From positions 3,824,501 to 3,888,500 of the forward strand of contig NZ_CP046703.1 in the NCBI RefSeq assembly GCF_009873495.1: DNA of 64,000 nucleotides, read 5' to 3'. Positions 10,577-31,674 of this stretch are shown here, in pieces; position 1 is the stretch's first letter, and every line of letters begins with the position of its first letter. Source of the stretch: Nostoc sp. ATCC 53789 (GTDB lineage: Bacteria; Cyanobacteriota; Cyanobacteriia; Cyanobacteriales; Nostocaceae). A program made the position numbers and the translations under genes. The notes under the pieces were generated by a model that worked only from the letters and a program-made list of their open reading frames with translations, had not been told where the DNA came from and did no database searches.

Positions 10577-11572
10577 ATGTTTTACTCTGAAGGAAAACCC
10601 TGTTCAGCTCTACTTATTGCTGCTTATCATGGACATAAAGATATTGTAGAATTATTGGTTGCTGCTGGTGCTAGCGTTCATGTTGTAGATGGTTCGGGTG
10701 AAACACCCTTACACAAGGCATCTTCCGAGGGACATAGGGATGTAGTCGAACTTCTGATTACTAATGGAGCGCAGATCGATGCTGAAGCAAAAGATGGCTG
10801 CACTTCTTTATACCTAGCTGCTTGGAATCAGCATAAGGAGATTGCTCAATTTCTGTTAGATTGTGGTGCGGTTATGCAGCCAGAGATCGCGGTAATGCTT
10901 GGAGATGTTGAACTAGTCAAGCACTATCTCGATTCGGGTTTAGATGTCAATTCTTCCCTTGTAAAAGGATTAAACAAAGAGGAGTCATGGTTAATTGCAG
11001 CTATCATGGGTAGAAATAAAAATCTTATTGAACTTCTCCTAAACTGTGGAGCAAACGTTAATCAGAAGATGAAATCTAAAAACGTTTCCCCACTACATCG
11101 TGCATCTGCTACAGGTTGCCTAGATATTTGTAAGCTTCTAATAGCTCATGGTGCAGATGTTAACGCTCTTGGTGAACATGGTAAGACTCCTCTACATTTG
11201 GCAACCCAGCTTGGACATCAAAATATCACAGAACTTTTGTTGGACTGTGGGGCTAATGTTAATGCCCTAGATGGATCAAAAAGTAGTCCACTCTTTGAAG
11301 CTGCCCGACATTACGATCTAAGTCTAGTGCAGTCTCTTTTAGATCGCGGTGCAGAAGTTAATGTAATAGACGATCAAAGTTGGACACCTCTGTTGCGTGC
11401 TTTTCAGCAGTCAGGTAATGATGAAATTATCAGAGTTCTTGTTATGTATGGTGCTGATGTTAATGTTCGAGCTTTGAGGGGAGAAAGTCCGCTTCATATA
11501 GCTGTTGCTCAGAGGAACAAAGATATGGTTGAGTTACTGTTAGCTCATGGTGCACGAGAAGGTTTAGAGTGA
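10577..11572 (+). CDS. Ankyrin-repeat protein
   Basis: 331 residues made almost wholly of about nine ankyrin repeats; clear ones carry TPLHKASSEGH, SPLHRASATG, TPLHLATQLGH and SPLHIAVAQRN. One central repeat near residues 105-130 is degenerate (MLGDVELVKHYL). No signal peptide, membrane segment or extra domain is visible, so it is probably a cytoplasmic protein-binding scaffold. The first repeat begins at residue 8, so the N-terminus has no separate cap. Partner and role are unknown. It may be read through from ruvC. Confidence 0.85.
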   Translation: MFYSEGKPCSALLIAAYHGHKDIVELLVAAGASVHVVDGSGETPLHKASSEGHRDVVELLITNGAQIDAEAKDGCTSLYLAAWNQHKEIAQFLLDCGAVMQPEIAVMLGDVELVKHYLDSGLDVNSSLVKGLNKEESWLIAAIMGRNKNLIELLLNCGANVNQKMKSKNVSPLHRASATGCLDICKLLIAHGADVNALGEHGKTPLHLATQLGHQNITELLLDCGANVNALDGSKSSPLFEAARHYDLSLVQSLLDRGAEVNVIDDQSWTPLLRAFQQSGNDEIIRVLVMYGADVNVRALRGESPLHIAVAQRNKDMVELLLAHGAREGLE

Positions 11573-11646
11573 GATAAGTTAAGTGGGTAAGAATAAATCA
11601 AACTATGTAAATCAATTAAATTGTTTTATATTAAAGGTTAAAGGCA

Positions 11647-12918
11647 TCAGCTCTCAATACAAACCTTTACACGGTATAACATCTCGCCAGCCTTCGGTAC
11701 AAGTAAGATACCTTCATCCTCACGGTTAGCCCATTCTGTGGGTCTAATGGTAGCTGGATCGCGATAGTTTAAATTATGAGCAGCACAGCGTTCAGCAGAA
11801 ATACCAGTGGCTAAAGTGACGCGAATCCGCGCTTGTTCCCCTTCTATAAAATCAAATGTACCCATACCTTTTAAGTGAGTGCTATGAGCCAGCACTCCAC
11901 CGGGATAGGCTTGAAATTTATCCCACTGCTTGAGGAAATAATCGCGTACATGGTAGCCAATTTGAGACAGAATTTCACTGTGTGTGTAGCTAAACTCAGT
12001 AATGTGAGGGGCATATATAATTACTTCGCCTCCGTCAGCCACTACTGGCTCTAGCTTGTACATTCCTTTTGCGGCCGTCCAAATGTCATCATACATTTCG
12101 GGCATTACTGAAAGCACTTGTTTAAAAGGCTGATTTACATAAGTAATATGCAGTTTGTCGGATAATTTTGCGGCGGCTTCCCAGGCTGACTCTGGTTTAT
12201 CTATGTAAAGTCCTGCTAGCTGATTTGTTTTGGGTGCAACCACCATCGCCAAGCAAAGTTTCGGTGTAGAAATTAGGTTAGCGGCTCGGTTAATCAAGCG
12301 CCGAACTGGTGTTATTCCCGATGTACCAATGATTTCGTAACTGGTTATTAAAGCACCTAACCAATGGGATATATCAATTACTTCCTGACCACCAATGCCA
12401 GGAAAAAAATATTTATTTCCACCAGAAAAACCGACAACTTCGTGGGGAAAGACAGGGCCGCAAATCATTATTAGATCGTACTGTGTTACAAGCTTGTTAA
12501 CCCTGACTTCAACGGACTGATGTAGCATTCCCCGGCTAATTTCTGCTATCTCATCTGCCGAAATTACTCCACAGGAAATAAAGGTATCTGGCTCATTCCA
12601 CAGGTGGTTAAATATGCGAACTTCTTTAAAGGTTGTCTCTCGCTCTTTTGGTGTCACCCCCACTAGGTGATTAATCTGTTCTTCACTCATAGGATTATGT
12701 GTACCCAGAGCGATCAAAAAATCTAGAGCCGGAACTCTTTTACCCAACTCCTGATGCAGCAATCGAAACATTTGCGGTATGGGAGCAGTGCGGGTACTAT
12801 CTGGAATTAATACTAAGATACGCTGTCCATCTAATTGACGATCTGCCAAAGCTTGATGAACTAGCCCAGAAATTTGCTCGTCGGAAAGTGTTCCGTTAGT
12901 TACAGCTAGTGAATACAT
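11647..12918 (-). CDS. LarA-family nickel-dependent racemase/epimerase (predicted D-mannonate/D-gluconate 2-epimerase)
   Basis: 423 residues, DUF2088/LarA superfamily. Residues matching the Lactobacillus lactate racemase centre are all visible: Asp40 and Arg43 (PDSTRTAP), His105 (FNHLW), His159 (FPHEVVGFSGG), Lys169 (GGNKYFFPG, the lysine that binds the nickel-pincer cofactor) and His185 (DISHWLG). The 159/169/185 spacing equals 174/184/200 of LarA. The family inverts the C2 carbon of 2-hydroxy acids, and gluconate 2-epimerases are known in it. The stop of the fructuronate-reductase-like gene is two bases upstream, so the two are translationally coupled; this makes mannonate the likely substrate (inference). 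The larB/larC/larE cofactor genes are not in the window. Confidence 0.8.
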   Translation of the reverse strand: MYSLAVTNGTLSDEQISGLVHQALADRQLDGQRILVLIPDSTRTAPIPQMFRLLHQELGKRVPALDFLIALGTHNPMSEEQINHLVGVTPKERETTFKEVRIFNHLWNEPDTFISCGVISADEIAEISRGMLHQSVEVRVNKLVTQYDLIMICGPVFPHEVVGFSGGNKYFFPGIGGQEVIDISHWLGALITSYEIIGTSGITPVRRLINRAANLISTPKLCLAMVVAPKTNQLAGLYIDKPESAWEAAAKLSDKLHITYVNQPFKQVLSVMPEMYDDIWTAAKGMYKLEPVVADGGEVIIYAPHITEFSYTHSEILSQIGYHVRDYFLKQWDKFQAYPGGVLAHSTHLKGMGTFDFIEGEQARIRVTLATGISAERCAAHNLNYRDPATIRPTEWANREDEGILLVPKAGEMLYRVKVCIES

Positions 12919-12920
12919 AA

Positions 12921-13757
12921 TTAAACTCCACTGTAGATACTAAATCCACCATCTACCGGCACGACTACCCCATTTACAAAACTAGAACCAGAACTGCATA
13001 ACCAAATCAAGGTACTGAGTAATTCGTCCGGTTTTCCGAAGCGTCCGGCGGGGGTATGCTCGATGATTTTCTGCCCGCGCACGGTCAAACTGCCATCTGG
13101 ATTTAGGAGTAAATCTCGATTTTGTTCTCCAATAAAGAAACCTGGGGCGATCGCATTTACTCGCATTCCATCCCCATACTTCTGGGCAAGTTCGACGGCT
13201 AACCAACGAGTAAAGTTATCTATCCCGGCTTTAGCGGCTGAGTAGCCAACCACTCGACTAATCACTCGGATAGCTGACATAGAAGAAATATTGACAATAC
13301 AACCGTGGGGCTGTTTTTTTTCAACCATTGCTTGACCAAAAACTTGGCTGGGGAGTAGAGTACCGAGTAAGTTTAGGCTAACTACTTCCTCAAAGGCTGC
13401 GTGTGGCATATCAAAAATAGTCGCATCAGGGGTAATTGTGGCAGCCGGAATATTACCGCCAGCCGAGTTTACCAAGATGTCTATTTGACCCCAACGCTGT
13501 ATGATTTTATCTCTGGCTATTTCTAATTGGGAGCGATCGCTAATATCTGCCAGTACAGCTATGCTTTCTCCACCGTTAGCAGTAATATCAGCTACTACCG
13601 CACTTGCCCGTGCTTCATTGCGGCCTAGAACGACTACTCGCGCTCCAGCAAGGGCTAAACCTCGCGCCATAGCTCCACCAAGTACGCCAGAACCGCCTGT
13701 GACTACTGCTACCTGCTCTTTTAGGCTAAAAAGTTTATTCAAAATTAAGTCTGGCAT
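12921..13757 (-). CDS. SDR-family D-fructuronate reductase / D-mannonate oxidoreductase (predicted)
   Basis: 278 residues. Classical short-chain dehydrogenase: cofactor motif TGGSGVLGGAM near residue 19, VNSAGG, catalytic Ser in ISSMSA, and YSAAK with catalytic Tyr and Lys. SDR enzymes of this subgroup (Bacillus YjmF-like) reduce D-fructuronate to D-mannonate, replacing the long-chain UxuB. The position directly after uxaC and before the LarA-like gene supports that reaction. A gluconate 5-dehydrogenase-like role is the main alternative, because sequence alone does not separate these subgroups. It belongs to the leftward operon headed by the LacI regulator. Confidence 0.8.
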   Translation of the reverse strand: MPDLILNKLFSLKEQVAVVTGGSGVLGGAMARGLALAGARVVVLGRNEARASAVVADITANGGESIAVLADISDRSQLEIARDKIIQRWGQIDILVNSAGGNIPAATITPDATIFDMPHAAFEEVVSLNLLGTLLPSQVFGQAMVEKKQPHGCIVNISSMSAIRVISRVVGYSAAKAGIDNFTRWLAVELAQKYGDGMRVNAIAPGFFIGEQNRDLLLNPDGSLTVRGQKIIEHTPAGRFGKPDELLSTLIWLCSSGSSFVNGVVVPVDGGFSIYSGV

Positions 13758-13889
13758 TAATTGATTGTCCTGGTTATTTCAATTGGGAGTTAAAAAAATT
13801 TAATATTTAAACGCAAAGGAGCGCAGAGGTAAGCGCAAAGGTACGCAGAGGGAAAAGAGAGATTTTAGGAGTGATTTTGGAGAATTGTA

Positions 13890-15308
13890 TTAGTCCAGTT
13901 TGTAAGCACTTTTAGCAAGGTCGTAAGCTAAGGCGCGGGCTATATCATACCCTTCCTCTTCGTCAACTAATCCCCGTGTTACTAATCCAGCTAACCAATT
14001 ACAAGCTACCCGCCGCCAAACATTATGACGGGCTGGAATAGAAACGAAAGCGCGAGTATCATCGTTAAACCCAGCAGTATTGTAAATTCCGGCTGTTTCC
14101 ATTACCTGATTGAAGTAGCGTTCCATGCCATTTACGCTGTCGTGAAACCACCAAGGCGGCCCGAGCAAAATAGTAGGATAATGACCAGCTAAAGGAGCCA
14201 TCTCTCGGCTGTAAGTGCTTTCATCCATACCAAAAATAATTAAACGGAAGCGCTGATCGTTCCCATAAGCTGACAATAATGGGTGTAGATTTCGAGTCCA
14301 TTCTATATTTAGCGGAATATCAGCACCTTTATCAGATCCAAATCTCTCAAACAGAGCCGGGTTATGGTTACGCATAACACCACAATGCATTTGCATCACC
14401 AAACCATCTTCTACACTCATCCGAGCCATTTCCATGAATATATGACCGGTAAACTGCTCCACATCTCCTGGATTCAGTTTGCCGATTAATGCTCTAGCAA
14501 AGATAGCTTCTGCTTCTTGGTCGGAAAGACGTGTGGTATAAGGTGTAGCTGCACCTTGATCGGTAGCTGTTGCACCCATTTTTTTAAAGAAAGTGCGACG
14601 TTCTTCTAGAGCTTGTACAAAAGTAGCGTAACTGCTAATTTCTCTACCGATACTGCTTTCCAATTTGGTCAGATTTTCCCGCCAACCAGGAGCATCTAGG
14701 TTAACTACTGCATCTGGTCGAAAAGTCGGTCTAATTTGAGTGAAACCTTCTTCGTGGAGCGATCGCAGATTCTCTAGGTTATCACTGGCTGCATCGGTAG
14801 TACAAAGCACTTCGATGTTAAAGCGTTTGAATAAAGCACGAGGGGAAAACTCAAGTAAGGCTAATAAACCTTCCAGATAATCATAGATACGTCCAGCATT
14901 GCGAGAATTTAATGGTTCATCCACCCCAAAGACATTAGTTAGTTCGTCTTTGAGCCACAACCCTGATGGAGTACCTTGGAATAAATAAAAATGTTCGGCG
15001 AACAATTGCCAGATTTTCCGGTGGTCGGTTTCTGCTGGTGCATCATGAGCAGGTATACCTAAAGCTTCCAGAGGAACGCCCCGACTATAAAGCATCCGTA
15101 AAATGTAGTGGTCAGGGATAATAAATAATTCAGTTGGTGAACCAAAACGGGCTGCTGGATTAGCTAACAGGGCTGGATCTACGTGCCCGTGTGGGCAGAC
15201 CAAAGGTAATGCAGATATGCTGTCAAAGAATTGATGGGCTAGTCGTCTTTGAACTGGTTCTGGAGAAAAACAGCGATCGTGAGATAAAACCGGTTTTTTG
15301 GTTAACAT
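13890..15308 (-). CDS. uxaC: Glucuronate isomerase
   Basis: 472 residues, close to the roughly 470 of E. coli UxaC. It converts D-glucuronate to D-fructuronate (and galacturonate to tagaturonate). Family motifs seen: CPHGHVDP with metal-site histidines near residue 40, FKRFNIEVLCTTDAASD, MQMHCGVMRNHN, and the C-terminal GFNDDTRAFVSIPARHNVWRR. Start is the first Met (MLTKKPVLSHDR). A 147-base gap separates it from the upstream regulator gene and 132 bases from the SDR. The spacer after it contains CGCAAAGG-type short repeats. Its substrate is presumably supplied by the myo-inositol oxygenase encoded nearby. Confidence 0.95.
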   Translation of the reverse strand: MLTKKPVLSHDRCFSPEPVQRRLAHQFFDSISALPLVCPHGHVDPALLANPAARFGSPTELFIIPDHYILRMLYSRGVPLEALGIPAHDAPAETDHRKIWQLFAEHFYLFQGTPSGLWLKDELTNVFGVDEPLNSRNAGRIYDYLEGLLALLEFSPRALFKRFNIEVLCTTDAASDNLENLRSLHEEGFTQIRPTFRPDAVVNLDAPGWRENLTKLESSIGREISSYATFVQALEERRTFFKKMGATATDQGAATPYTTRLSDQEAEAIFARALIGKLNPGDVEQFTGHIFMEMARMSVEDGLVMQMHCGVMRNHNPALFERFGSDKGADIPLNIEWTRNLHPLLSAYGNDQRFRLIIFGMDESTYSREMAPLAGHYPTILLGPPWWFHDSVNGMERYFNQVMETAGIYNTAGFNDDTRAFVSIPARHNVWRRVACNWLAGLVTRGLVDEEEGYDIARALAYDLAKSAYKLD

Positions 15309-15455
15309 ATTTTTTGTTTGGTCAAAATTTTTAGTTTTACTGAGTGTTAATAAGGATTTGTCTTACGCAGAGTTGTCCATTTTGAAACATTTTCTCTTGT
15401 AGGTTTAGTCTAATTACACAAAAACTACAGTTTTCAAGATAGACACGATTTCAAA

Positions 15456-16484
15456 TTACTTTATTAATCTTGCACTACTACCACGCTCTACTAGAAAAGG
15501 AGATAAAACGCGGTTTTCCACAGTTTTTTCTTCTAATAAATCAAGTAACATTTGCATGGCATAGCCACCAATTTCTAACATCGGCTGGCTGACTGTTGTA
15601 AGTGTCGGTGTAACATAACTACCTAAAGCAATACCATCAAATCCAACCAGGCTTAAATTTCGTGGTACTAAAATACCTAGTTCTTGGCAAGCTAAAAGAG
15701 CGCCAACTGCCACCATATCGTTGTAACAAAAGATGCCTGTTACCTCAGCAGTCAAAAGTTTAGATAGCATGTTTTGTCCAGTGGCGACATCGCTGATTCT
15801 GGTATCATATTCATCACTAATTGCAACCCAATCAGGATTTTGTGGTAGACCAGCTTCAGCAAGAGCCATTTGATATCCTTCTAGGCGCTGGCGGTTTGAC
15901 CTGCTGCGATCGCTTACACCCAAATAACCAATGCTGGTGTGTCCCAAACTTATTAAATGCTCTGTGGCTAATCTCGCACCTAAGCGATCGTCTATTGCCA
16001 CTGAGTGAAATATTTCCGATTGATCTTCGGTCTGGCTGTTAATTAAAACTGTTGGTACAGCAATTTGGGTTAGCTGCTTTACATGCTGTTTACTAATTCG
16101 TGAGTCGGCTATTAAGATTCCGTCTACTCTCCGGCGATGAAAGGTATCAATAGCTGCCATTTCCTGCTCAAAATCTCGGTGTGAAGCACTTAACAAAACA
16201 CTCAATCCGGCTGGTCTGGCTATCTGTTCAATGCCGTCTACTACTTCAGCAAAAAAGGGATCTGCAATGGAAGTTACTACTACACCAATGGTATTAGTAC
16301 GTTTATTTTGCAAACTTTGAGCTATAGCATTTGGCACATAGTTCATCTCCTGCGCCAGCTGCTTAATTTCTTCTCGCACTTTTGGGCTAATGAGAGCATT
16401 ATCTCGCAAAGCACGTGAAACTGTGGAATGAGAAACACCTGCTCTCCGAGCGATATCTTCAATTGAAATTCTTCGTTTATTCAT
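15456..16484 (-). CDS. LacI-family transcriptional regulator
   Basis: 342 residues. The N-terminal helix-turn-helix (SIEDIARRAGVSHSTVSRAL, residues 7-26) and hinge (YVPNAIAQSLQNKRT) are followed by a periplasmic-binding-like effector domain (FCYNDMVAVGAL, GFDGIALGSY). It should bind a palindromic operator and be released by a sugar or sugar acid. A perfect palindrome lies 23 bases upstream of its own start, implying autoregulation and control of the divergent gluconokinase. It heads the uronate operon. The Anabaena fructose regulator FrtR is also of this family, so the inducer could be fructose, glucuronate or inositol. Confidence 0.9.
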   Translation of the reverse strand: MNKRRISIEDIARRAGVSHSTVSRALRDNALISPKVREEIKQLAQEMNYVPNAIAQSLQNKRTNTIGVVVTSIADPFFAEVVDGIEQIARPAGLSVLLSASHRDFEQEMAAIDTFHRRRVDGILIADSRISKQHVKQLTQIAVPTVLINSQTEDQSEIFHSVAIDDRLGARLATEHLISLGHTSIGYLGVSDRSRSNRQRLEGYQMALAEAGLPQNPDWVAISDEYDTRISDVATGQNMLSKLLTAEVTGIFCYNDMVAVGALLACQELGILVPRNLSLVGFDGIALGSYVTPTLTTVSQPMLEIGGYAMQMLLDLLEEKTVENRVLSPFLVERGSSARLIK

Positions 16485-16506
16485 TTTTTAGTTTAGATTT
16501 TAAAAT

Positions 16507-16524
16507 AATGCACACGTGTGCATT
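16507..16524. promoter_or_regulatory. Predicted LacI-family operator in the divergent lacI-gntK promoter
   Basis: AATGCACACGTGTGCATT is a perfect 18-bp palindrome with the central CG typical of LacI-family operators. It lies 23 bases from the regulator start and 136 bases from the gluconokinase start. Its 14-bp core recurs exactly upstream of the myo-inositol oxygenase gene. Confidence 0.75.
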
Positions 16525-16659
16525 TGTATGTATTATAGAAAATAATGGTTATTTGTCAAGAGATTTTAATACAACTCATATTTTGCATACAAAAATTCAA
16601 TAGTCTTACTTCCTGCCTCCTGTCCCTTACCTCAATAACTTAACTTTTCTTCAAAAAAT

Positions 16660-17145
16660 ATGATTATTATCGTCATGGGTGTATCTGGTTCTGGTAAAAC
16701 CACTATAGGAAAACTGCTAGCAGACTCTTTAGGCTGGGAGTTTAGTGATGCTGATAGTTTCCACTCACCAGAGAATGTTGAGAAAATGCGGCGCGGTATC
16801 CCGTTGACTGAAGCTGACAGGATGCCTTGGTTGCAAGATTTGCAAGCAGCCATCAAACATTGGCTGCAAGAAAATAAAAATGTCGTGCTGGCGTGTTCGG
16901 CTTTAAAAGACAGCTATCGGCAATTTTTGGTATCGGATAGCGTTCGCACTAAGTTAGTTTACCTCAAAGGCTCTTATGAGTTGATTCAAATACGGTTAAA
17001 AGAACGTAGCAATCATTACATGAGCGAAAAACTTCTCAATAGCCAGTTTGATACTCTCGAAGAACCATTAGATACGATATCTATGGATGTTGCACAACCA
17101 CCCCAGATCATTGTCCAGAATATTAGAACGGCTTTGAGACTTTAG
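16660..17145 (+). CDS. gntK: Gluconokinase
   Basis: 161 residues. It phosphorylates D-gluconate to 6-phosphogluconate, entry point of the oxidative pentose phosphate pathway. P-loop GVSGSGKTTIG is at residues 7-17; the family signature FSDADSFHSPENVEKM and the GIPLTEADRMPWL stretch are present, as is LACSALKDSYR. Length is normal for the GntK/ThiJ-like short gluconokinases. It is divergent from the uronate operon and shares its operator, which ties gluconate formation to uronate breakdown. A truncated shikimate kinase was considered but the gluconokinase motifs are clear. Confidence 0.95.
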   Translation: MIIIVMGVSGSGKTTIGKLLADSLGWEFSDADSFHSPENVEKMRRGIPLTEADRMPWLQDLQAAIKHWLQENKNVVLACSALKDSYRQFLVSDSVRTKLVYLKGSYELIQIRLKERSNHYMSEKLLNSQFDTLEEPLDTISMDVAQPPQIIVQNIRTALRL

Positions 17146-17282
17146 CTGATTGGTTAAAACCGTAAGGTTAAGATTAATCACGTCTCTACGAAAACACGAA
17201 CTTTTGGCAACTAAATACGTCGGATGTAAGTCTAAAGAAGTTTTAAAAGCAACCACATAACTGTAGTGGTAGGAGAAAACTA

Positions 17283-17606
17283 GTGTTTCTAAGATTAGCG
17301 CAACAACATCAAGAATTCGTTCAAGACTTGGTAATGAACCTACAAGCCTTGACAATTATTCTTGAGCGGCGTGGGTATTCTGCCTCATGTTATACGTGCG
17401 GCGACCAAATGAAGAGTGCTTCATTTATGGTTAGCCTACGAGAAAAGCATCTGATTCGTTTTGTAGTGTCTGATTACGGAATTACTTGGATGGAATTATG
17501 GGACGATCGCGAATTAATGAAGTTGGAGGGTGCAGAAGCAATAAAACAATTGCAAGAGTTGGCTAATATTATCAAGTATTCGCACACCATACAATTGACA
17601 ACTTAA
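17283..17606 (+). CDS. Hypothetical protein
   Basis: Up to 107 residues from a GTG; an ATG 17 codons further (MNLQALTIILERRGYS) is an alternative. I do not recognise the family. It is a soluble alpha/beta-like small protein with CYTCGD (a CxxC pair) near residues 39-43 and no membrane segment. It lies between gluconokinase and the MIOX promoter, 137 bases after gntK on the same strand, so it could be cotranscribed. No function is proposed. Confidence 0.6.
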   Translation: MFLRLAQQHQEFVQDLVMNLQALTIILERRGYSASCYTCGDQMKSASFMVSLREKHLIRFVVSDYGITWMELWDDRELMKLEGAEAIKQLQELANIIKYSHTIQLTT

Positions 17607-17648
17607 CACTCCTCTAGGTAAAACCGACAAAAAACTTAATATAGATTT

Positions 17649-17662
17649 TACACAGGTGTGTA
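17649..17662. promoter_or_regulatory. Operator-like half palindrome upstream of MIOX
   Basis: TACACAGGTGTGTA has TACACA/TGTGTA arms like the LacI-type operator but a non-palindromic GG centre. It is 460 bases upstream of the MIOX start, so it could be an auxiliary looping site or lie in the hypothetical gene's downstream region by chance. Confidence 0.35.
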
Positions 17663-17881
17663 TAAAGCTATTTATTCAAAAATCTATCCAACAGATGAAT
17701 TATCTATTAGTATAAACTTATTCCTACACAGATCGCATAAGTACTTGATTTTAAGTCTGCGCTCTAAATTTCGTGTACTTTATCAATACTTTTGTCTAAT
17801 CCCGATTGGATTGTAAAAAACGCTTGACGAAGTGTGTTGTACACAGTTTTGCAGATGGAAAAGAAACTTAACACACGTCTC

Positions 17882-17895
17882 TGCACACGTGTGCA
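17882..17895. promoter_or_regulatory. Predicted LacI-family operator upstream of MIOX, copy 1
   Basis: TGCACACGTGTGCA, a perfect 14-bp palindrome identical to the core of the lacI-gntK operator. A 14-base perfect match in two promoter regions 1.4 kb apart is unlikely by chance and links both transcription units to one repressor. Confidence 0.72.
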
Positions 17896-17917
17896 AAAAT
17901 AAATCAATTACAGCTTT

Positions 17918-17931
17918 TGCACACCTGTGCA
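17918..17931. promoter_or_regulatory. Predicted LacI-family operator upstream of MIOX, copy 2
   Basis: TGCACACCTGTGCA differs from the perfect operator only at one central position. Its centre is 36 bases from the preceding site, near three to three and a half helical turns, which would allow cooperative or tandem binding. Confidence 0.55.
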
Positions 17932-18009
17932 TAAATGGATTCCCAAAGTCCGATTTAGAAAATCAATACCGACAAGTAACAAGATATGTCTCCAATACTT
18001 GTCGGAAAA

Positions 18010-18042
18010 GGGGAAAAGGGGAAAAGGGGAAAGGGGAAGGGG
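18010..18042 (+). other. Five G4 tracts in the MIOX leader
   Basis: Five runs of four G, separated by two to four A, lie 80 to 112 bases upstream of the MIOX start and would be on the mRNA strand. CCTTTTCCCC at 18067-18076 can pair with the tracts, so the leader could switch between a G-quadruplex and a hairpin. It may simply be a low-complexity dispersed repeat, as related GGGGAAAA repeats occur in other spacers. Confidence 0.5.
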
Positions 18043-18121
18043 AAAGAAAAAACCTTTATCCTTTAACCTTTTCCCCAAGCCCAATTCCGAGTTAAAAATC
18101 CTTAACCGAGCAGTATTGGAT

Positions 18122-19018
18122 ATGTCTCAGATTTTAAAGAATTCCATCGAACAAGCTCAAAACAACCCCTTACATTCGCTAGAAGAGTGGGAAGAAGACT
18201 TACTCAATCGCTATCCCAATCCAGACAGCATAGTTAAAGAAGGTAAAACCACCGAAGAGTATAGGAATTACCAAACGCCTACTAGAGATACGGTGAAAGA
18301 ATTTTATCGGTTAAATCATATTAATCAGACATATAATTTTGTACTTGAGAAAGAAAAGAATTTTCTCAAGTTTGATAAGAAAGAAATGTCTGTTTGGAAT
18401 GCGGTTGAATTTTTGAATCAATTAGTAGATGATTCAGATCCTGATACAGATATGGATCAGCTACAGCATTTATTGCAAACATCAGAAGCCATTCGCGCTG
18501 ATGGTCATCCTGATTGGATGGTACTTACTGGCTTCTTTCACGATCTGGGGAAGGTGCTTTGTCTATTTGGTGAGCCTCAATGGGCTACTGTAGGTGATAC
18601 TTATCCAGTGGGTTGTGCATTTTCTGATAAAATTGTTTTCTCGGAATTTTTCAAAGACAACCCTGATTACAATAATCCCAATTACAACACTAAATATGGT
18701 ATTTATGAGCCGAATTGTGGATTGAGTAATGTACATATTTCATGGGGGCATGATGAGTATTTATATCAAATAATGAAAAACTATTTGCCTGAATCGGCGT
18801 TGTATATGCTTCGCTATCACTCATTTTATCCTCAACACCGCGAAAACGCATATAACCATTTGATGGATAATCACGATCGAGAAATGTTTAAATGGGTGAA
18901 TTTATTCAATCCTTATGATTTGTATTCAAAAAACCCTACTCCTCCCGATTGGCAAAACTTAAGACCATACTATGAGGATTTAGTGGCTAAATATCTACCC
19001 ACGACGTTAAAGTTTTAA
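18122..19018 (+). CDS. Myo-inositol oxygenase
   Basis: 298 residues. The non-heme di-iron enzyme cleaves myo-inositol with O2 to D-glucuronate. All six iron ligands of animal MIOX can be placed: His116, His140 and Asp141 (FFHDLGKV), His210 (SWGHDEY), His233 (YHSFYPQH) and Asp266. Stretches such as [12 protein letters not shown] and [14 protein letters not shown] are strikingly like the eukaryotic enzymes. The frame extends 65 codons upstream through operator and G-tract sequence, but the internal ATG gives the normal family length and is preferred. It feeds UxaC in the divergent operon. The eukaryotic-like sequence suggests ancient transfer (inference). Confidence 0.95.
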
Positions 19019-19750
19019 ACTGCTGACACTCAATTACTAGCTATTGCTGTGCGCTAAAAAATCTCAATTTTTATAGGAGATGCTAGGAGCAGTTAATCAA
19101 TTTCAGGTTTGGGATTTTAGATTAACCTATATCTATAGATTGGTGCTGAAAACTAGTTTGAAGCTTAGAATTTGAAATCTTTCAACTGCATTATCTAAAA
19201 TCTAAAACTGTTTATCCTCCGAGCTGAATTATGATATTTCAATCTGAAAATGTTAAGTTTTTTGAATTTACTTAATCTTAAAAATACTTAACATTTTCCA
19301 GCAATAGAATTCCAAGAATTTTAACTAAAGATAGATTAAAAATCTTTCTTTGTTTTGTAACATTTAATAACTAAAACTCATTTTGGTACTAAGGAAGGAT
19401 AAACTCATAAAAAGACAAGCAGACGTTTTCAAGTCGAATAATATCCTTTTCTAAAAATTTTGCGGAAAAGGTAGTTTCAATCCAGGCACATTAAAAAAGC
19501 ATTTTCACCAAAAAATAGTGTGATTTCATGACGTTATGTAATCGTCATAAGTTTGCTTTAAAAATAAAATTTTTTAGTGAATTGGAATGAATAGCAGCAA
19601 CTCAAATCACATCAGTTTGCAAGATATTAAATAAGAGTTGAAAATGCCAAATCCTGTAGAAATATTAGGTAATGTCTGATTATTTTAGACATATTTAATA
19701 TTCTGCCGACCTTGATCAAATTTAAATTCGTTGTTAAAAATAAGACAAAG
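19019..19750. promoter_or_regulatory. Long leader region of the sugar ABC transporter operon
   Basis: 732 bases without a gene. Most is AT-rich. A dyad with ATGACG and CGTCAT arms, nine bases apart, at 19528-19548 could be an operator for a regulator other than the local LacI protein, whose TGCACA-type site is not seen here. The binding-protein start is preceded by AGACAAAG, a weak ribosome site. Confidence 0.4.
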
Positions 19751-20755
19751 ATGAAGACAATTGCGCTCATAGTTGGCATATTAGGTTTCACTTTTGTGAG
19801 CTGCACAAATAGCGCTCCAAATGATAACTCTGCTGCTAATGTTACTAATACTGCTACCAACACTAGTTTAGAGACTAAAGTTAATAGTCCAAATAGAAAA
19901 TTGCAAACAATTGGTGTTGCCTTGGGTGACTTGGGAAACCCTTTCTATAATGCAGTGCAGAAGGGTGCAGAGACAGAAGCTAAGAGAATTGGCGGTAATA
20001 TTAGAGTGAATGCGGTTTCTAGTGGTTTTGATTTGAACCAACAAAGCAACCAAATCGAAAATTTTACTGCTGCAAATACTGATTTAATTATCCTCAGCGC
20101 TGTTGATAAAAAAGGAGTTAAACCGGTAATTGACCAAGCAAGGCTGGCAGGTAAGGTTGTCATTGCAGTAGATTCAGCCGTTGATGCAGACGTAGATGCA
20201 ATGATTAGCTCCAACAATACGCAAGCTGGTGAGATTGCTTGTCAATATATTGCCGATCGCATCAAAGGTCAAGGTAGTGTAGTCATCCTCAACGGTACGC
20301 CGATGGATTCAATCAATCAGCGAGTCAGTGGTTGTGAAAAGTCATTATCCAAATATCCTGATATCAAACTCATCTCTAAAGACCAAAACGCCGAAGGGAC
20401 AAGGGATGGAGGTTTGAGAGTAATGAGTGATTTACTTACAACCTTTCCCAAAATAGATGCCGTTTTTGCCACGAACGATCAAAGCGGTGTGGGTGCAGAC
20501 TTAGCCGCAAGACAAGCAAAACGCAAAGAATTTTTTATTGTTGGGGTTGACGGTTCGCCAGATGCAACCAAAGCAATGGAAGACAAAGATGGTGTATTTG
20601 CTGCAACTGCGGCGCAAAATCCCGCAGGGATGGCTGAAAAAGCGGTTCAGATTGGCAACGATATCATCCAGGGTAACAAACCTGAGTCACCTGACATTCT
20701 GATTCCAGTCAACTTGGTTACTAGAGATAACCTCAGCAGCTACAAAGGCTGGTAA
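19751..20755 (+). CDS. Sugar ABC transporter substrate-binding lipoprotein, copy 1
   Basis: 334 residues. Lipoprotein signal with lipobox FVSC about residue 17, then an Asn/Thr-rich linker and an RbsB-type periplasmic-binding domain (GVALGDLGNPFYNAVQKG near residue 60; ATNDQSGVGADLAAR). An upstream in-frame TTG exists, but the ATG used here gives a proper signal peptide. It is a tandem duplicate of the following gene, about two-thirds identical by eye. The family carries ribose, fructose or inositol. From memory, Nostoc fructose transporters (frtA) also have two adjacent binding proteins; the ligand remains undecided. Confidence 0.88.
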   Translation: MKTIALIVGILGFTFVSCTNSAPNDNSAANVTNTATNTSLETKVNSPNRKLQTIGVALGDLGNPFYNAVQKGAETEAKRIGGNIRVNAVSSGFDLNQQSNQIENFTAANTDLIILSAVDKKGVKPVIDQARLAGKVVIAVDSAVDADVDAMISSNNTQAGEIACQYIADRIKGQGSVVILNGTPMDSINQRVSGCEKSLSKYPDIKLISKDQNAEGTRDGGLRVMSDLLTTFPKIDAVFATNDQSGVGADLAARQAKRKEFFIVGVDGSPDATKAMEDKDGVFAATAAQNPAGMAEKAVQIGNDIIQGNKPESPDILIPVNLVTRDNLSSYKGW

Positions 20756-20793
20756 GTAAGAAAAATTTAATTAACTTTAGGAAATAGATAAAT

Positions 20794-21816
20794 ATGAAAA
20801 GGATTGCGATCGCAGCTAGCATACTAGGTATCATCAGTGGTGGGGTTGTCGGCTGTACAAATGCTTCTCCCGATAACAACAGTGCTACTAACCCTGAGAC
20901 AAAACCTGCTACAAATACTAGTGCCGAGACTAAAACTGCCACTGGGAATTCCAAATTACGATCAGTTGCCTTCACCGTTGGCGATTTAAGTAACCCTTTC
21001 TTTGTCCTCATGGGACAAGCAACTGAGGCAGAAGCCAAGAAAATTGGCGGTAAAGATGTCAATGTAACTGTAGTTTCCAGCGCTTACGATCTGAATCAAC
21101 AATCCAATCAAATTGAAAATTTCACTGCTTCCAATACTGACATTATTATCGTCAATGCTGCTGATAAAAGTGGCATTAAACCAGCAATTGAAAAAGCGAA
21201 ACAAGCTGGTAGAATTGTCATTGCGGTAGATACTGGTGCTGAAGGAGGCGTGGATGCCACCATCACTACTAATAATGTTCAAGCTGGAGAAGTTAGTTGT
21301 AAATATATTGCCGATCGCCTCAAAGGTAAAGGCAATGTAGTAATAGTTAATGGCCCGCCAGTAGACTCGGTGATTCAGCGAGTTAGTGGCTGCGAGAATG
21401 TACTGTCTAAATATCCCGATATCAAAATCCTCTCCAAAAACCAGAATGCAGAAGGGAGTCGGGATGGAGGACTAAGAGTTATGACTGATTTGCTGACAAC
21501 CTTCCCGAAAATTGATGCGGTTTTTGCCATCAACGATCCGAGTGGAGTTGGTGCAGAACTAGCAGCAAACCAAGCACAACGTAAAGATTTCTTTATTGTC
21601 GGGGTTGATGGTGCGCCAGAAGCAATCACTGCGATCGCAGCTAAAGATAGTATATATGCTGCTACCGCTACTCAAAATCCGCGAGGGATGGCTGAAAAAG
21701 CAGTTCAGGTTGGAAACGACATTTTAAATGGGAAAAAACCTACTAATCCCACCATTTTGATTCCAGTTAAGCTGATCACAAAAGATAATGTCAGCACAGA
21801 AAAAGGCTGGAAATAA
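20794..21816 (+). CDS. Sugar ABC transporter substrate-binding lipoprotein, copy 2
   Basis: 340 residues, paralogue of the preceding gene and 38 bases after it. Lipobox VVGC at about residues 18-21. The binding domain keeps DLSNPFFVLMG, the SAYDLNQQSNQIENFT stretch shared with copy 1, and AINDPSGVGAELAAN. Differences cluster in the N-terminal linker and near the first ligand loop (NPFF instead of NPFY), so the two may bind different sugars or anomers. It is separated from the ATPase gene by a strong hairpin, which could let binding proteins be made in excess. Confidence 0.88.
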   Translation: MKRIAIAASILGIISGGVVGCTNASPDNNSATNPETKPATNTSAETKTATGNSKLRSVAFTVGDLSNPFFVLMGQATEAEAKKIGGKDVNVTVVSSAYDLNQQSNQIENFTASNTDIIIVNAADKSGIKPAIEKAKQAGRIVIAVDTGAEGGVDATITTNNVQAGEVSCKYIADRLKGKGNVVIVNGPPVDSVIQRVSGCENVLSKYPDIKILSKNQNAEGSRDGGLRVMTDLLTTFPKIDAVFAINDPSGVGAELAANQAQRKDFFIVGVDGAPEAITAIAAKDSIYAATATQNPRGMAEKAVQVGNDILNGKKPTNPTILIPVKLITKDNVSTEKGWK

Positions 21817-21889
21817 TAACAATTGTAAATTCGCAATTAAGAGTTATGTCTAAGCTGAATTGAGTCTTTTGATACATTGACATAGTTTT

Positions 21890-21918
21890 TGCACATACCC
21901 ATGATGTATATATGTGCA
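21890..21918. promoter_or_regulatory. TGCACATA/TATGTGCA inverted repeat
   Basis: Eight-base perfect arms separated by 13 bases. The TGCACA/TGTGCA half-sites match those of the local LacI-type operator but are spread apart, so direct repressor binding is uncertain; it could also be part of an RNA stem. Confidence 0.4.
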
Positions 21919-21924
21919 TTTGTA

Positions 21925-21963
21925 GAAAGTTCTGAATATTGCCTTTCAATATTCAGAACTTTC
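21925..21963 (+). terminator. Hairpin between binding-protein genes and ATPase gene
   Basis: A perfect 17-bp stem with a 5-base loop (arms starting GAAAGTTCTGAATATTG). No T-run follows on the right, so it may act as an mRNA-stabilising stem or partial terminator that sets a high binding-protein to membrane-component ratio. Confidence 0.65.
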
Positions 21964-22076
21964 CAAAATAGCAATCGCTTTTTAAAACATGATTTTGTGA
22001 TAATTTTAATTTCACATCAGCGATGAATTTATAACTTTCAATTGCGAATTTTAAATTCTTTTTACAGGAGATGTTC

Positions 22077-23633
22077 ATGACAACAAATATTGAAACCTCA
22101 TTTCCTGATGCACCAACCACCACCCCTGTATTAGAAATGCAAGGGATTACCAAACGATTTCATGGTGTATCTGCGCTCCAAAATGTTAATCTCACGATTT
22201 ATCCAGGAGAAGTTCACGCCCTCATGGGTGAAAACGGAGCAGGCAAAAGCACATTGATGAAAATCCTGGCAGGCGCTTACATTGCCGATGAAGGAGAAAT
22301 TCGCATCAATGGTCAACCCCTGAAAATTACCGATCCGGCAACAGCACGTAAGGCGGGAATTAATCTTATTTATCAAGAATTGAACGTTGCGCCTAATTTA
22401 ACCGTTACCGAAAATATGTTTATGGGTAGCGAGTTGCGGCGAGGTCAATTTTTAGACCGCAAAGCGATGCAACTGGAAGCAGAGCAAGTGTTAGATAGCT
22501 TGGGAGCGAATTTTACCGCCCAGACTATAGTTGGTACTTTATCCATCGCAGAACAGCAACAAGTCGAAATTGCCAGGGCGCTGAAAGATAAAAGCCGCGT
22601 TTTGGTGATGGATGAGCCAACAGCAGCCCTATCTGACCGCGAGAGCGACCATTTATTCGAAGTAATTCGCAAACTACGGAGTGATGGCATTGCGATTATT
22701 TACATCAGTCATCGTATGGAAGAAATCTATGCTTTAGCTGACCGGATTAGCGTACTGCGCGATGGTCAATATATTGGTAGTCTCACACGCAGCGAAATTT
22801 CTCCACAGCGATTGGTGCGGATGATGGTTGGTCGCTCCATGCAAGACTTTTACGAACATCAACGGCAAATGAATCCTGGGCCGGTGGTGCTAGAAGTCAG
22901 AAATATGAGCGATGCTCGCAAGAAGATTGAGCCGGCTAGCTTTGAACTTCATGCAGGGGAAATTCTCGGTTTAGCGGGGTTAGTTGGTGCAGGACGCACA
23001 GAACTATCGCGGCTGATTTTTGGTGCTGACCGCAAAGCCAGTGGTGAAGTATTTTTAAATGGCAAAAAACTAGAAATTAATACGCCCAGTGATGCGATCG
23101 CTGCGGGAATTGGCTACGTCCCAGAAGACCGCAAAGACCAAGGTTTATTTCTAGAGATGAGCGCCCGCAAGAATATTGCTATCAACACACTCAAGCAGGA
23201 TGCAAGGGGTGGAATTGTTAACTGGCCTTCAGTGAATCGGTTGTCAACAGAGGCAGTAGAAAACTTTAATATTCGTCTAGCCAATTTGGAAATTAGAGCG
23301 TTGGATCTTTCTGGTGGAAATCAACAAAAGCTACTGCTAGCGCGTTGGTTAGCCATTAAACCGAGAGTACTGATGTTAGATGAGCCGACACGCGGCGTAG
23401 ATATCGGTGCTAAAAGCGAAATTTACCGAATTATGAGCGAATTGGCAGCACAAGGTGTTGCTATTTTAATGGTTTCCAGCGAACTATCAGAGATTGTCGG
23501 TATGAGCGATCGCGTCTTGGTGATGCGAGAGGGACAACTGGTAGGTGAACTGGACGGCAGCCTTGGCAAAGAAATCACCCAAGAAAAGATTATGCACTAC
23601 GCAACTGGAGCATCGGAGGTATCAGCATTATGA
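22077..23633 (+). CDS. Sugar ABC transporter ATP-binding protein (RbsA/FrtB-like)
   Basis: 518 residues with two nucleotide-binding domains. Domain 1: Walker [10 protein letters not shown], signature [10 protein letters not shown], Walker [12 protein letters not shown]. Domain 2: degenerate Walker [11 protein letters not shown], signature [20 protein letters not shown]. This asymmetry is normal for RbsA/XylG/MglA-type importers. An ATG six bases earlier abuts AGGAG directly; the ATG used here is spaced six bases from it and is preferred. It overlaps the permease gene by four bases (ATGA), showing tight coupling. With the two lipoproteins it forms one importer for a monosaccharide or inositol. 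Confidence 0.93.
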
Positions 23634-24628
23634 GTCAGACAGTCAGACCGCCTATCAATAAATCAGCCAACAATCCCGCAGCTCGCAACCGGAAATCAAT
23701 CAGCACTCTGCTGGAAGTTGCGGGTATTCTGCCAATTCTAGTAATTATCTGCATCTTATTTGCATTTCTTTCTCCCAACTTTCTCACCGGCGGTAATATC
23801 GTCAATATCTTGCGTCAGGCATCAATCAATATTGTGCTGGCGACAGGAATGACCTTTGTAATTCTCACCGGTGGTATTGACCTATCAGTTGGGTCAATAT
23901 TGGCCGTTTCTGCCGTAGTTGGACTGCTGGTATCGCTACTGCCAGCTTTAAGTTGGGCGGCTGTACCTGCTGCATTGCTGGCAGGATTGCTTTTAGGCTT
24001 AGTCAACGGCGCTCTCATTACCTTCTTAGATGTGCCACCTTTTATTGTGACGTTGGGTTCACTTACAGCCTTGCGGGGTGTGGCATTTTTGATTGCCAAA
24101 GGGACAACGCTGATTAACCGGGACATCAATTTTGCTTGGGTGGGTAATAGTTACGTCGGGCCTCTGCCGTGGTTAGTAATCATTGCACTACTGACTGTAA
24201 TCGCTAGCTGGTTTGTGCTGCGGCAAACAGTTTTAGGAGTGCAGATATATGCCGTAGGTGGTAACGAACGGGCAGCCAGATTAACTGGGATTAAAGTTAA
24301 TCGTGTCTTGCTATTTGTCTATGGTATTAGCGGATTACTGGCAGGTTTAGGAGGAGTCATGAGCGCCAGCCGTCTATATAGTGCCAGTGGCATATTGGGT
24401 CAAGGTTACGAATTAGATGCGATCGCTGCTGTTATTCTAGGTGGAACCAGCTTCACAGGTGGTATTGGTACCATTGGCGGCACACTTCTCGGTGCATTAA
24501 TTATTGCTATTCTCAACAACGGTTTAACTCTGTTGAACCTATCTTACTTCTGGCAACTAGTCGTCAAAGGACTAGTAATTATTTTGGCAGTCATGATTGA
24601 CCGACTCCGCAGACGTTCTAGACGTTGA
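23630..24628 (+). CDS. Sugar ABC transporter permease (RbsC/FrtC-like)
   Basis: 332 residues with about eight to ten hydrophobic segments starting near residue 27. Family motifs [17 protein letters not shown] and the conserved [14 protein letters not shown] loop ([12 protein letters not shown]) are present, as is [15 protein letters not shown]. It provides the transmembrane channel of the RbsA-type importer. The basic C-terminus RLRRRSRR is cytoplasmic. Expected to form a homodimer with the fused ATPase. After it lies a repeat-rich 132-base spacer before the symporter gene. Confidence 0.93.
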
Positions 24629-24760
24629 AAAAGAGGCAAGGGAGCAGGGGAGGCAGGAGAAGCATAACTATTGGTTATTAAGTAATTCCCCATACTTCGA
24701 CTTCGACTGCGCTCAGTACAAGTTCCCCATTCCCAATTCCCAATTCCCAATATATAAACT

Positions 24761-26161
24761 ATGACATCTACTACTACTCGTCGTAAATCCAGCACATTTT
24801 ATGTGATTTTGATTGCTGGTGCTGCTGCCCTCGGCGGTTTTCTATTCGGTTTTGACACTGCTGTAATCAACGGTGCGGTTGGCGCTCTTGCCAAAGCCTT
24901 TAACGCCAACAGTGTGTTAACGGGTCTTGCCGTGTCCCTAGCATTGTTAGGGTCTGCGTTAGGAGCTTTCTATGCAGGGAAAATCGCAGACCGATATGGT
25001 CGAGTCAAAGCAATGGTAGCAGCTTCGGTGTTGTTTACCATCAGTGCTATTGGCTCTGGGATTGCCTTTGGAATCTGGGATTTCATCTTTTGGCGGGTAT
25101 TGGGTGGCATTGCAGTTGGTGTTGCTAGTGTCATCGCGCCAGCTTATATCGCCGAATGTTCTCCCAGCCATTTGCGAGGAAGATTAGGATCTCTGCAACA
25201 ATTAGCGATCGTAGTTGGAATTTTCATTGCACTGCTATGCGACTACTTTATTGCTGTATCAGCAGGTTCAGCCGAGTCGCCGTTTTTGTTTGGTATAGCC
25301 GCTTGGCGCTGGATGTTTTGGACAGAAATTCCTCCCGCCGTGCTGTATGGAATGTCTGCTTTGATGATTCCCGAATCTCCCCGGTACTTAGTTGCTCAAG
25401 GACGAGAGCCAGAAGCTGCTAACGTTCTGACTAAGATTTTGGGGGGTGATGTGCTGGCAAAAATCGAAGAAATTCGGCAGACAGTGCTTCGAGAACGCGA
25501 ACCGAGATTTTCTGATCTCTTAAGCAGAAATGGTGGACTCCTTCGCATTGTTTGGATAGGAATCGGCTTATCTGTATTCCAGCAATTCGTTGGGATTAAT
25601 GTAATCTTCTACTACAGCAGCGTTTTGTGGCGTGCTGTCGGATTTTCCGAACAAAGTTCCCTAACAATCACGGTGATTACAGGAGCCGTCAACATTATTA
25701 CAACACTGATTGCGATCGCCTTTGTGGATAAATTTGGTCGCAAGCCCTTGCTGATAATAGGTTCAATTGGCATGACCTTGACCTTGGGGACGATGGCTTA
25801 TGTTTTTGGCAATGCTCCCCTAGATGCTGCTGGAAACCCTGCCCTCACCGGAAGCGCCGGGACTGTGGCTCTTATCGCAGCTAACCTCTACGTCTTTTGC
25901 TTCGGTTTCTCCTGGGGGCCAGTGGTTTGGGTGCTATTGGGAGAAATGTTTAATAACAAGATTCGAGCGGCTGCACTTTCAGTTGCTGCTGCAATTCAAT
26001 GGGTCGCGAATTTCCTTATTTCCACAACATTTCCTCCCATACTCCAATATTTCGGTCTAGGTTCTGCCTATGGACTTTATACAATTGCGGCGGCTACCTC
26101 ATTCTTTTTCATTCTCTTTTTTATTAAAGAAACCAAAGGAATTGAGTTGGAAGATATGTAA
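24761..26161 (+). CDS. Sugar:proton symporter, GlcP-like MFS
   Basis: 466 residues, twelve predicted membrane helices. Sugar-porter signatures: GFLFGFDTAVINGA in helix 1, DRYGRVKAM loop, PESPRYL, QQFVGINVIFYYSS in helix 7, DKFGRKPLL and the C-terminal ETKGIELEDM. Length equals that of cyanobacterial GlcP glucose permeases, and in Nostoc I recall glcP beside a fructose ABC cluster, as here. Inositol symporters belong to the same family, so inositol is a real alternative in this context. Spacing suggests its own promoter or weak read-through from the permease. Confidence 0.88.
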   Translation: MTSTTTRRKSSTFYVILIAGAAALGGFLFGFDTAVINGAVGALAKAFNANSVLTGLAVSLALLGSALGAFYAGKIADRYGRVKAMVAASVLFTISAIGSGIAFGIWDFIFWRVLGGIAVGVASVIAPAYIAECSPSHLRGRLGSLQQLAIVVGIFIALLCDYFIAVSAGSAESPFLFGIAAWRWMFWTEIPPAVLYGMSALMIPESPRYLVAQGREPEAANVLTKILGGDVLAKIEEIRQTVLREREPRFSDLLSRNGGLLRIVWIGIGLSVFQQFVGINVIFYYSSVLWRAVGFSEQSSLTITVITGAVNIITTLIAIAFVDKFGRKPLLIIGSIGMTLTLGTMAYVFGNAPLDAAGNPALTGSAGTVALIAANLYVFCFGFSWGPVVWVLLGEMFNNKIRAAALSVAAAIQWVANFLISTTFPPILQYFGLGSAYGLYTIAAATSFFFILFFIKETKGIELEDM

Positions 26162-26472
26162 TTCGCATCTACCTAATGCCTCTACTGCCTAATTTGTAAT
26201 TCTGAACTCAATCATTCGTAAAAAACTTTATTTTCGACTTTTCAAATCAAATTCAGTAGCATCTGAATGATTAAAGAACCGCAGAGACGCTGAGGGCGCT
26301 GAGAAGAGGAAAGAAGAATAATTCCGATACAAATGGATTTGGTATCAAATCAAAAAAGATTGCTGTAAATTTTGTGGGGTGGGCATCTTGCCCGCCCTGA
26401 TGCTGCAAACTTTCTCTGGAACATCTAACAACAACTAAATACAAGCTTTCGCTTCAGTCAATCAGTAAAAAG
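26162..26472. other. Intergenic region with short repeats
   Basis: 311 bases. It holds a CGCAGAGACGCTGAGGGCG-like tandem heptamer-type repeat and a GGGTGGGCATCTTGCCCGCC repeat near 26380, both of dispersed type. No gene seen; the end should contain the oxidoreductase promoter. Confidence 0.45.
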
Positions 26473-27519: not shown

Positions 27520-27648
27520 GTAATCTAAAATTTCAACTCAAAATATCTAACTTTAATGCTGGCTAGCTTATAAGCCAGAAGCTTTTGTTCGACTGTAATT
27601 TCTTTCTTTACAAAGTCAGAATTCAACCATTTTCACATAAATAAGTCC

Positions 27649-29241: not shown

Positions 29242-29247
29242 TGGTTT

Positions 29248-29276
29248 AGTTGGCTAACAGACTCTGTTAGCCAACT
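29248..29276 (+). terminator. Terminator after the porin gene
   Basis: Perfect 13-bp stem AGTTGGCTAACAG / CTGTTAGCCAACT with a 3-base loop, six bases after the porin stop codon. It ends the sugar island transcript. Confidence 0.8.
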
Positions 29277-31559: not shown

Positions 31560-31674
31560 GATCATTTTTCCAAAAATAGCTCGTTTACATTTCTGATTTA
31601 ACTGAACCAAAATTACAGTTTGCCCTGCTTGTAAATTACAATTTTGTAATTTTGAGGAAGAAAGGGTGCTGCAA

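Follow-up and report, generated by a model that had tools for sequence, protein, structure and literature searches.

A probable enzyme identity for HrmA in the hormogonium-regulating locus of Nostoc: a GntE-like hexonate 2-epimerase

A window of 64,000 nucleotides from Nostoc sp. ATCC 53789 (contig NZ_CP046703.1, positions 3,824,501 to 3,888,500; all positions below count from the start of this whole stretch) contains a member of the hrm (hormogonium-regulating) locus of plant-symbiotic Nostoc. Comparison of its LarA-like protein, HrmA, with proteins of assayed function indicated that HrmA is likely a nickel-pincer nucleotide (NPN)-dependent hexonate 2-epimerase similar to GntE. At a probability of roughly 0.75, the locus would, with HrmA converting D-mannonate to D-gluconate, carry uronate carbon to the oxidative pentose phosphate route, under repression by HrmR through the palindrome TGCACACNTGTGCA. 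The genes hrmU and hrmA were reportedly described in 1997 as being switched on by the host plant and as both stopping the formation of motile hormogonia in Nostoc.

Later work likewise describes suppression of hormogonia by hrmU and hrmA, whose expression the host appears to control (PMC6702271), and induction of hrmA by Azolla compounds (PMC10095879). HrmA was listed as unknown in a 2018 paper and said to be without homology in a 2021 review. The accessible open-access literature on hrmA and hormogonia, or on cyanobacterial lactate racemase, yielded no link of HrmA to LarA or GntE, and such a statement may exist elsewhere; some public protein records have already been labelled automatically as ‘lactate racemase domain-containing protein’. 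An earlier sequence-only reading of the window had proposed a complete chain from myo-inositol to 6-phosphogluconate, with a LarA-type epimerase in place of mannonate dehydratase, and knew of no account of it in a cyanobacterium. This novelty could not be upheld, since the locus has already been published as hrm (PMC5987646), and a bypass from mannonate via gluconate to 6-phosphogluconate, proposed for Thermotoga in 2012 and with its epimerase assayed in 2020, is a precedent (PMC6978723, PMC7583248, PMC3750489). The probable enzyme identity of HrmA is the better finding.

HrmA as a LarA-type protein and its predicted cofactor

By sequence, the best match of HrmA in the PDB was 4NAR (211.8 bits; 36.1% identity over 379 aligned positions), which is GntE2 of Thermotoga maritima, an enzyme shown to convert D-mannonate to D-gluconate (PMC7583248). 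An AlphaFold2 model of HrmA built from 21 sequences reached a predicted local distance difference test (pLDDT) score of 78.6 and a predicted template modelling (pTM) score of 0.81, with residues 312-347 under a pLDDT of 50. When this model was used for a structure search, 4NAR again came first (TM score 0.76), followed by Mar2 and LarA structures, and all 19 fold matches with E < 0.001 were LarA-type chains. In a MAFFT alignment, the NPN-binding residues R75, K184 and H200 of LarA corresponded to R43, K169 and H185 of HrmA, which were invariant in the 21 sequences, and the catalytic residues D72, H174 and K298 to D40, H159 and K284; the GntE2 numbers for the latter three were deduced from neighbouring residues numbered in PMC7583248. 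LarA H108 matched HrmA H105, also invariant in the 21 sequences, in an HMMER alignment, the patch being unaligned in the MAFFT alignment. Of the marks of hexonate groups 18, 19 and 20, HrmA further carries E160-V161 after the histidine and W280, the latter taken for the helix 11 mark by our own reading of PMC7583248. The position of the helix 14 mark (A/V) is read as G341-V342-L343-A344, within the stretch of low model confidence at 312-347. In a tree of 83 proteins, the seven cyanobacterial proteins formed one cluster (100/100) nested among sequences that are either from Chloroflexota or unassigned, which suggests that cyanobacterial HrmA was taken up from bacteria of this kind.

The genome also encodes the proteins for making the cofactor, for which the sequence-only reading had proposed a check: LarC (486.4 bits), LarE (325.6 bits) and LarB (288.3 bits) were all found above their cut-offs and unlinked to the locus. 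With the own genome counted in each, LarC and LarE were present in 29/29 and LarB in 26/26 cyanobacterial genomes. Synechocystis LarB, LarC and LarE make NPN in Escherichia coli, and LarA is missing from most cyanobacteria (PMC11796402). HrmA would give the cyanobacterial cofactor one likely client. As a separate observation, LarC and LarE occurred in all 29 genomes and a Lar_N protein in at most 16 (15 without a weak match of 26 bits in G028, whose frame runs past the end of the examined stretch), leaving the rest without a known NPN client, as PMC11796402 has already remarked on for cyanobacteria.

A LarA-type epimerase standing in the usual place of mannonate dehydratase, as the earlier reading had it, was supported. 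UxuA (PF03786) was found in none of the 29 genomes, with five of 14 control genomes positive. Neither this search nor that for the cofactor genes, both bearing on refuting conditions named in the earlier reading, went against it. Without a mannonate dehydratase, kdgK and eda, also put forward for a search, are immaterial for this branch. Proteins of the enolase superfamily were considered as well, since one of them might be an overlooked mannonate dehydratase. The own genome has three MR_MLE_C matches, and this candidate was ruled out for the two examined, neither of which scores as a mannonate dehydratase, one being MenC and the second lying nearest to, and below the cut-offs of, the N-acetyl-Glu racemase and Ala-Glu epimerase models; the third match is a 438-amino-acid frame.

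Locus, operator and distribution among cyanobacteria

The gene kinds of the hrm locus are present in the window, namely hrmE, hrmK, hrmR, hrmI, hrmU and hrmA together with the frt genes, glcP, mviM and oprB. The assignment rests on matching gene kinds against the legend of Fig. 6 in PMC5987646 rather than on sequences matched by name to strain ATCC 29133; with these kinds of gene present, the LarA-like protein of the window is HrmA. The features are as follows.

11647..12918, reverse strand: hrmA, LarA superfamily, predicted NPN-dependent D-mannonate/D-gluconate 2-epimerase (GntE-like); Lar_N 77.9 bits
12921..13757, reverse strand: hrmU, short-chain dehydrogenase/reductase (SDR), fructuronate reductase / D-mannonate oxidoreductase; NF006132 390.1 bits, cut-off 281
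13890..15308, reverse strand: hrmI, uronate isomerase UxaC; PF02614 265.1 bits, PRK02925 480.8 bits, cut-off 387
15456..16484, reverse strand: hrmR, LacI-family repressor; PF00356 and periplasmic-binding-like domains
16509..16522, no strand: operator TGCACACGTGTGCA between hrmR and hrmK; one of three exact genome sites
16660..17145, forward strand: hrmK, GntK-type gluconokinase; TIGR01313 158.9 bits, cut-off 113.75
17283..17606, forward strand: DUF1815 protein, perhaps what is labelled ‘unk’ in the published hrm locus; PF08844 169.5 bits
17882..17895, no strand: operator 5' of hrmE; exact site
17918..17931, no strand: second operator 5' of hrmE; exact site
18122..19018, forward strand: hrmE, myo-inositol oxygenase (MIOX); PF05153 371.2 bits (scored on 18116-19018)
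19712..24628, forward strand: frtA1-frtA2-frtB-frtC, CUT2-type sugar ATP-binding cassette (ABC) transporter with two binding proteins (fructose by its published name); by families
24761-26161, forward strand: glcP, sugar porter; by family, name from PMC5987646
26473-27519, forward strand: mviM, Gfo/Idh protein; by family, name from PMC5987646
27649-29241, forward strand: oprB, porin; by family, name from PMC5987646

The genes thus lie where the sequence-only reading had placed them, and the families held up in profile searches (Lar_N, UxaC, LacI and MIOX, with D-mannonate oxidoreductase, glucuronate isomerase and GntK-type gluconokinase above curated cut-offs). The coordinates also bore out the spacing of two bases between the SDR and LarA-like genes; the gaps are 132 bases for UxaC/SDR, 147 for LacI/UxaC and 175 for LacI/gluconokinase. 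HrmI matched the uronate isomerase structure 2q01 (E 3e-132) and HrmE the inositol oxygenase structure 2huo (E 4e-81). The iron-ligand and substrate residues of HrmE were judged by eye in the alignment with 2huo, in which the iron-ligand motifs are kept. The start of hrmE is probably the ATG at 18122, which gives 298 amino acids as in one relative, the listed GTG at 17927 being probably too early. A scan of window positions 11000-30000 against Rfam returned no family. Beyond these genes, the listing of open reading frames shows at 30870-31610 a small predicted protein with about four near-identical repeats ending ...KLGVSEQQLKDALGVP.

The palindrome TGCACACNTGTGCA occurs at three exact sites in the 8,653,730-base genome, all within the locus: once between lacI and gntK (window 16509), in agreement with the earlier proposal that gntK shares an operator, and twice 5' of the MIOX gene (17882 and 17918). 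Allowing up to two mismatches, 34 forward and 49 reverse matches were obtained; the reversed pattern, run as a control, gave 10 and 11. Among Nostoc loci, some of whose genomes were counted twice, by handle and by name, the palindrome was located 5' of hrmR in 28/28 cases (22 exact, six with one mismatch). At least one exact site lay 5' of hrmE in 27/27 loci, and at least two sites with no more than one mismatch in 26/27; the palindrome was found 5' of hrmI in none of 28 Nostoc loci and 5' of frtA1 in none of 25. This pattern would fit a single operon formed by hrmR-I-U-A, with hrmK divergent from it, hrmE on its own and the sugar transporter outside. The operator sites match the two promoters, those of hrmR and hrmE, at which HrmR has been reported to act (PMC5987646), and HrmR is predicted to bind the palindrome.

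The gene order gntK-lacI-uxaC-SDR-larA is kept in 14 other genomes of the genus examined and, recurring in so many, is therefore not due to chance; in three of the 14 the MIOX part is not adjacent, lying on a different contig or at a distance of about 36 kb. In G012, for example, the hrmA-hrmK block runs from C1:437312 and hrmE lies at C1:473657, the hrmA-hrmK and hrmE-frt blocks being about 36 kb apart and the operator being kept at each. The LarA-like protein was detected in 15 of 29 relatives, all belonging to the genus of the window (15/17), and MIOX in the same 15. In G016 larA is split over contigs at a contig end, and the stop codon noted in the LarA matches of G005 and G013 is their natural stop. 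A search of 386 cyanobacterial genomes for HrmA gave four: besides the own genome, these were a second genome of its species, a remnant and a distant protein (26% identity). MIOX exceeded its cut-off in 4/386. UxaC and HrmA were present in the same 16 of 26 genomes; among the ten without a UxaC match, G148 has the HrmA remnant and G039 the distant protein. The Nostoc genome G148 (L163:9492-11742) retains a whole hrmR and only fragments of hrmI, hrmU and hrmA, with hrmE and hrmK 1.4 Mb away, and G189 gave no match to hrmI, hrmU or hrmA, while MIOX, gluconokinase and the transporters remain. By these two patterns, hrmI-U-A stay or decay together, and their loss can leave hrmE and hrmK in place. 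The distant LarA-type protein of G039, a far cyanobacterial relative (L171:4976-6268), was nearest to malate racemase models, below their cut-offs (218.2 of 500).

The proposed route and other readings of the locus

In the proposed route, HrmE would convert inositol to D-glucuronate, HrmI D-glucuronate to D-fructuronate, HrmU D-fructuronate to D-mannonate, HrmA D-mannonate to D-gluconate in an NPN-dependent step, and HrmK D-gluconate to 6-phosphogluconate. If HrmA turns D-mannonate into D-gluconate, uronate carbon would enter the oxidative pentose phosphate route and a mannonate dehydratase would be unneeded. HrmR would repress hrmR-I-U-A, probably hrmK, and hrmE through TGCACACNTGTGCA. The enzyme identities of the earlier reading are supported, as is its order of steps as the likely one, and the mannonate-epimerase chemistry is probable. 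We infer the activity and substrate of HrmA, and phosphorylation after epimerisation, from sequence comparison and gene context.

Gene neighbourhoods outside Nostoc bear on the product of HrmA. A scan of genome contigs, for which the alignment had a Roseiflexaceae protein at its head, yielded at least 80 loci, and setting aside 13 of Nostoc type left 67 from Chloroflexota, Acidobacteriota, Planctomycetota and others, the contigs being mostly from metagenome-assembled genomes. Neighbours were counted from script-made gene calls by the best match with E <= 1e-6 anywhere in the fetched locus, and all counts for these 67 loci are among the matches listed. An HrmU-like SDR was near the gene in 41/67 (40 at 42-56% identity, one at 34%), 6-phosphogluconate dehydrogenase (6PGD) in 32/67, the tagaturonate epimerase UxaE in 18/67 (two weak, at 25% and 32% identity) and UxaC in 14/67 (12 within 7 kb, two weak at 29% identity); at least one of the four accompanied the gene in 51/67. 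Of these neighbours, 6PGD hints most strongly at gluconate, bound for 6-phosphogluconate, as the likely product. UxuA was not among the 25 commonest families when 92 unassigned neighbours were scanned, 64 further families lying beyond these. A 299-amino-acid protein with a haloacid dehalogenase (HAD)-like motif by eye and no Pfam match at 1e-5 (L137:9037-9936) recurred in 16/67.

Several observations weigh against this assignment. HrmA scored 199.7 bits on the NCBIfam hexonate-epimerase equivalog NF052594 (group 18), whose cut-off is 500, and the Chloroflexota relatives P0065 and P0108 scored 194.5 and 178.3 bits; lying far below, HrmA is therefore not in that equivalog and is filed only as GntE-like. 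The tree of 83 proteins gave Thermotoga GntE2 no confident place, on a branch of 6.8 changes per column; the protein of L109, a 29%-identity match, is also an outlier there. For the Corynebacterium GntE1, the KM (Michaelis constant) for D-mannonate is 120 mM, and its authors doubt the substrate (PMC7583248). Within Nostoc, larA of G002 lies in two frames, and as the genomes are related and the genes linked, the co-occurrence counts represent few independent events. MIOX, part of the chain that the sequence-only reading had drawn, is separable from the rest: in two Nostoc genomes (2/386) it persists along with gntK, while UxaC is missing and no whole epimerase gene is left. Outside Nostoc, 16/67 loci, some of them short, had none of SDR, 6PGD, UxaE and UxaC, and a PfkB protein resembling 2-keto-3-deoxygluconate (KDG) kinase was near in 11/67, which could mean a KDG route there. 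Since PfkB came with 6PGD in 9/11 of these loci, it may be the gluconokinase there, the KDG route being the other possibility. The nine loci combining GntE-like protein, 6PGD and PfkB are L100, L102, L108, L113, L115, L116, L124, L131 and L144.

The locus might instead be an ordinary catabolic cassette from Chloroflexota-like soil bacteria, feeding on plant uronates and with no developmental role of its own. The nesting of HrmA among Chloroflexota and unassigned sequences and the linked transporters and porin would agree with this, yet we regard it as unlikely, as hrmU and hrmA have been reported to suppress hormogonia and hrmA to be host-induced (PMC6702271, PMC10095879). These reports oppose a purely catabolic role only and do not contradict the enzyme call.

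Galacturonate is also taken by UxaC, and UxaE joins galacturonate to fructuronate. HrmA could accordingly act on another C2 pair, such as altronate/allonate or an aldarate, and the signal of HrmR is said to be galacturonate-like (PMC5987646), while the authors of the GntE1 study suspected that its substrate is an aldarate or some other hexonate (PMC7583248). However, no assigned gene of the window locus is UxaE, for which no whole-genome search was made, and the gluconokinase beside the operator and 6PGD in the outside loci point to gluconate, so that this appears quite improbable. Equally improbable is that HrmK first phosphorylates D-mannonate and HrmA then epimerises 6-phosphomannonate to 6-phosphogluconate, an order with the same end product that has been described in Lactobacillus suebicus extracts, where the epimerase gene was not identified (PMC6978723), whereas the closest assayed structural relative, GntE2, acts on free D-mannonate (PMC7583248) and HrmK scores as a gluconokinase (TIGR01313).

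Hormogonium arrest and comparison with known systems

Assigning HrmA as a hexonate 2-epimerase, with 6-phosphogluconate as the end of the route, allows a proposal for how hrm acts in development. Once a plant factor induces hrm, flux bound for 6-phosphogluconate, or the loss of a uronate-like inducer, would stop hormogonium formation. Glucuronate, the presumed product of HrmE, is the C4 epimer of galacturonate. As HrmR is said to respond to a galacturonate-like compound (PMC5987646), the cell may therefore make its own inducer. We infer that this inducer would be glucuronate or galacturonate and that flux to 6-phosphogluconate would end the hormogonium state. A more specific and tentative proposal, which we hold to be possible but rather less than an even chance, is that the plant-induced arrest runs via the nickel-pincer enzyme, a self-made HrmE inducer being drained by HrmI-U-A-K and the flux (gluconate, 6-phosphogluconate or NADPH) returning hormogonia to vegetative and nitrogen-fixing filaments.

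The start of the route from inositol, as drawn in the sequence-only reading, found no backing in the transporters: those linked to the locus are named for fructose (frt) and glucose (glcP), and no operator was found 5' of frtA1. The neighbouring ABC and major facilitator superfamily genes were accordingly rejected as shown inositol importers, their order and names being those of the published frt and glcP. The Gfo/Idh protein (mviM) remained below all three NCBIfam cut-offs (PRK11579, 286.2 of 330; another model, 220.4 of 352; inositol 2-dehydrogenase, 77 of 355).

Once HrmA is assigned a defined activity, with its substrate, cofactor and product, the model of hormogonium repression can be tested using mannonate and a commercial kit for gluconate, and a simple assay can address the old question of which substance the hrm genes produce or clear in halting hormogonia. 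The assignment would also link the symbiosis of plants and cyanobacteria to nickel and to a rare cofactor. If the arrest does run via the nickel-pincer enzyme, the symbiosis would be gated by larB/C/E and the supply of nickel, and HrmA would be an NPN user in a phylum mostly making the cofactor without a known LarA.

Among LarA homologues, LarAH19 (Corynebacterium glutamicum), LarAH20 (T. maritima) and LarAH15 (Phytophthora) are GntE enzymes; in a comparison with LarAH20 only, to which it is about 36% identical, HrmA shared the LarA fold, the catalytic and NPN residues, the E-V/S loop and the tryptophan. The galacturonate route of L. suebicus is similar in that an isomerase route is joined to 6-phosphogluconate with UxuA, KdgK and KdgA left out, and differs in that phosphorylation precedes epimerisation (PMC6978723). 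The UxaR regulon of T. maritima (gnd, uxaE, uxaD, gntE, gntK) likewise leads hexonates towards 6-phosphogluconate by a LarA-type GntE and a gluconokinase (PMC3750489, PMC7583248). Thermotoga, however, starts from galacturonate or pectin and employs UxaE, with a kdgA-kdgK-uxuB-uxuA operon in addition, whereas the Nostoc cassette starts with MIOX, comes without a UxuA match in the 29 genomes and is tied to cell development. Closest of all is the hrm locus of Nostoc punctiforme, which has the same genes under the same names, linked likewise to frtA1A2BC, glcP, mviM and oprB (PMC5987646), with the palindrome of the window lying at the hrmR and hrmE promoters. Between these two loci there is no difference in kind, and the reading of HrmA as a likely hexonate 2-epimerase is the new part.

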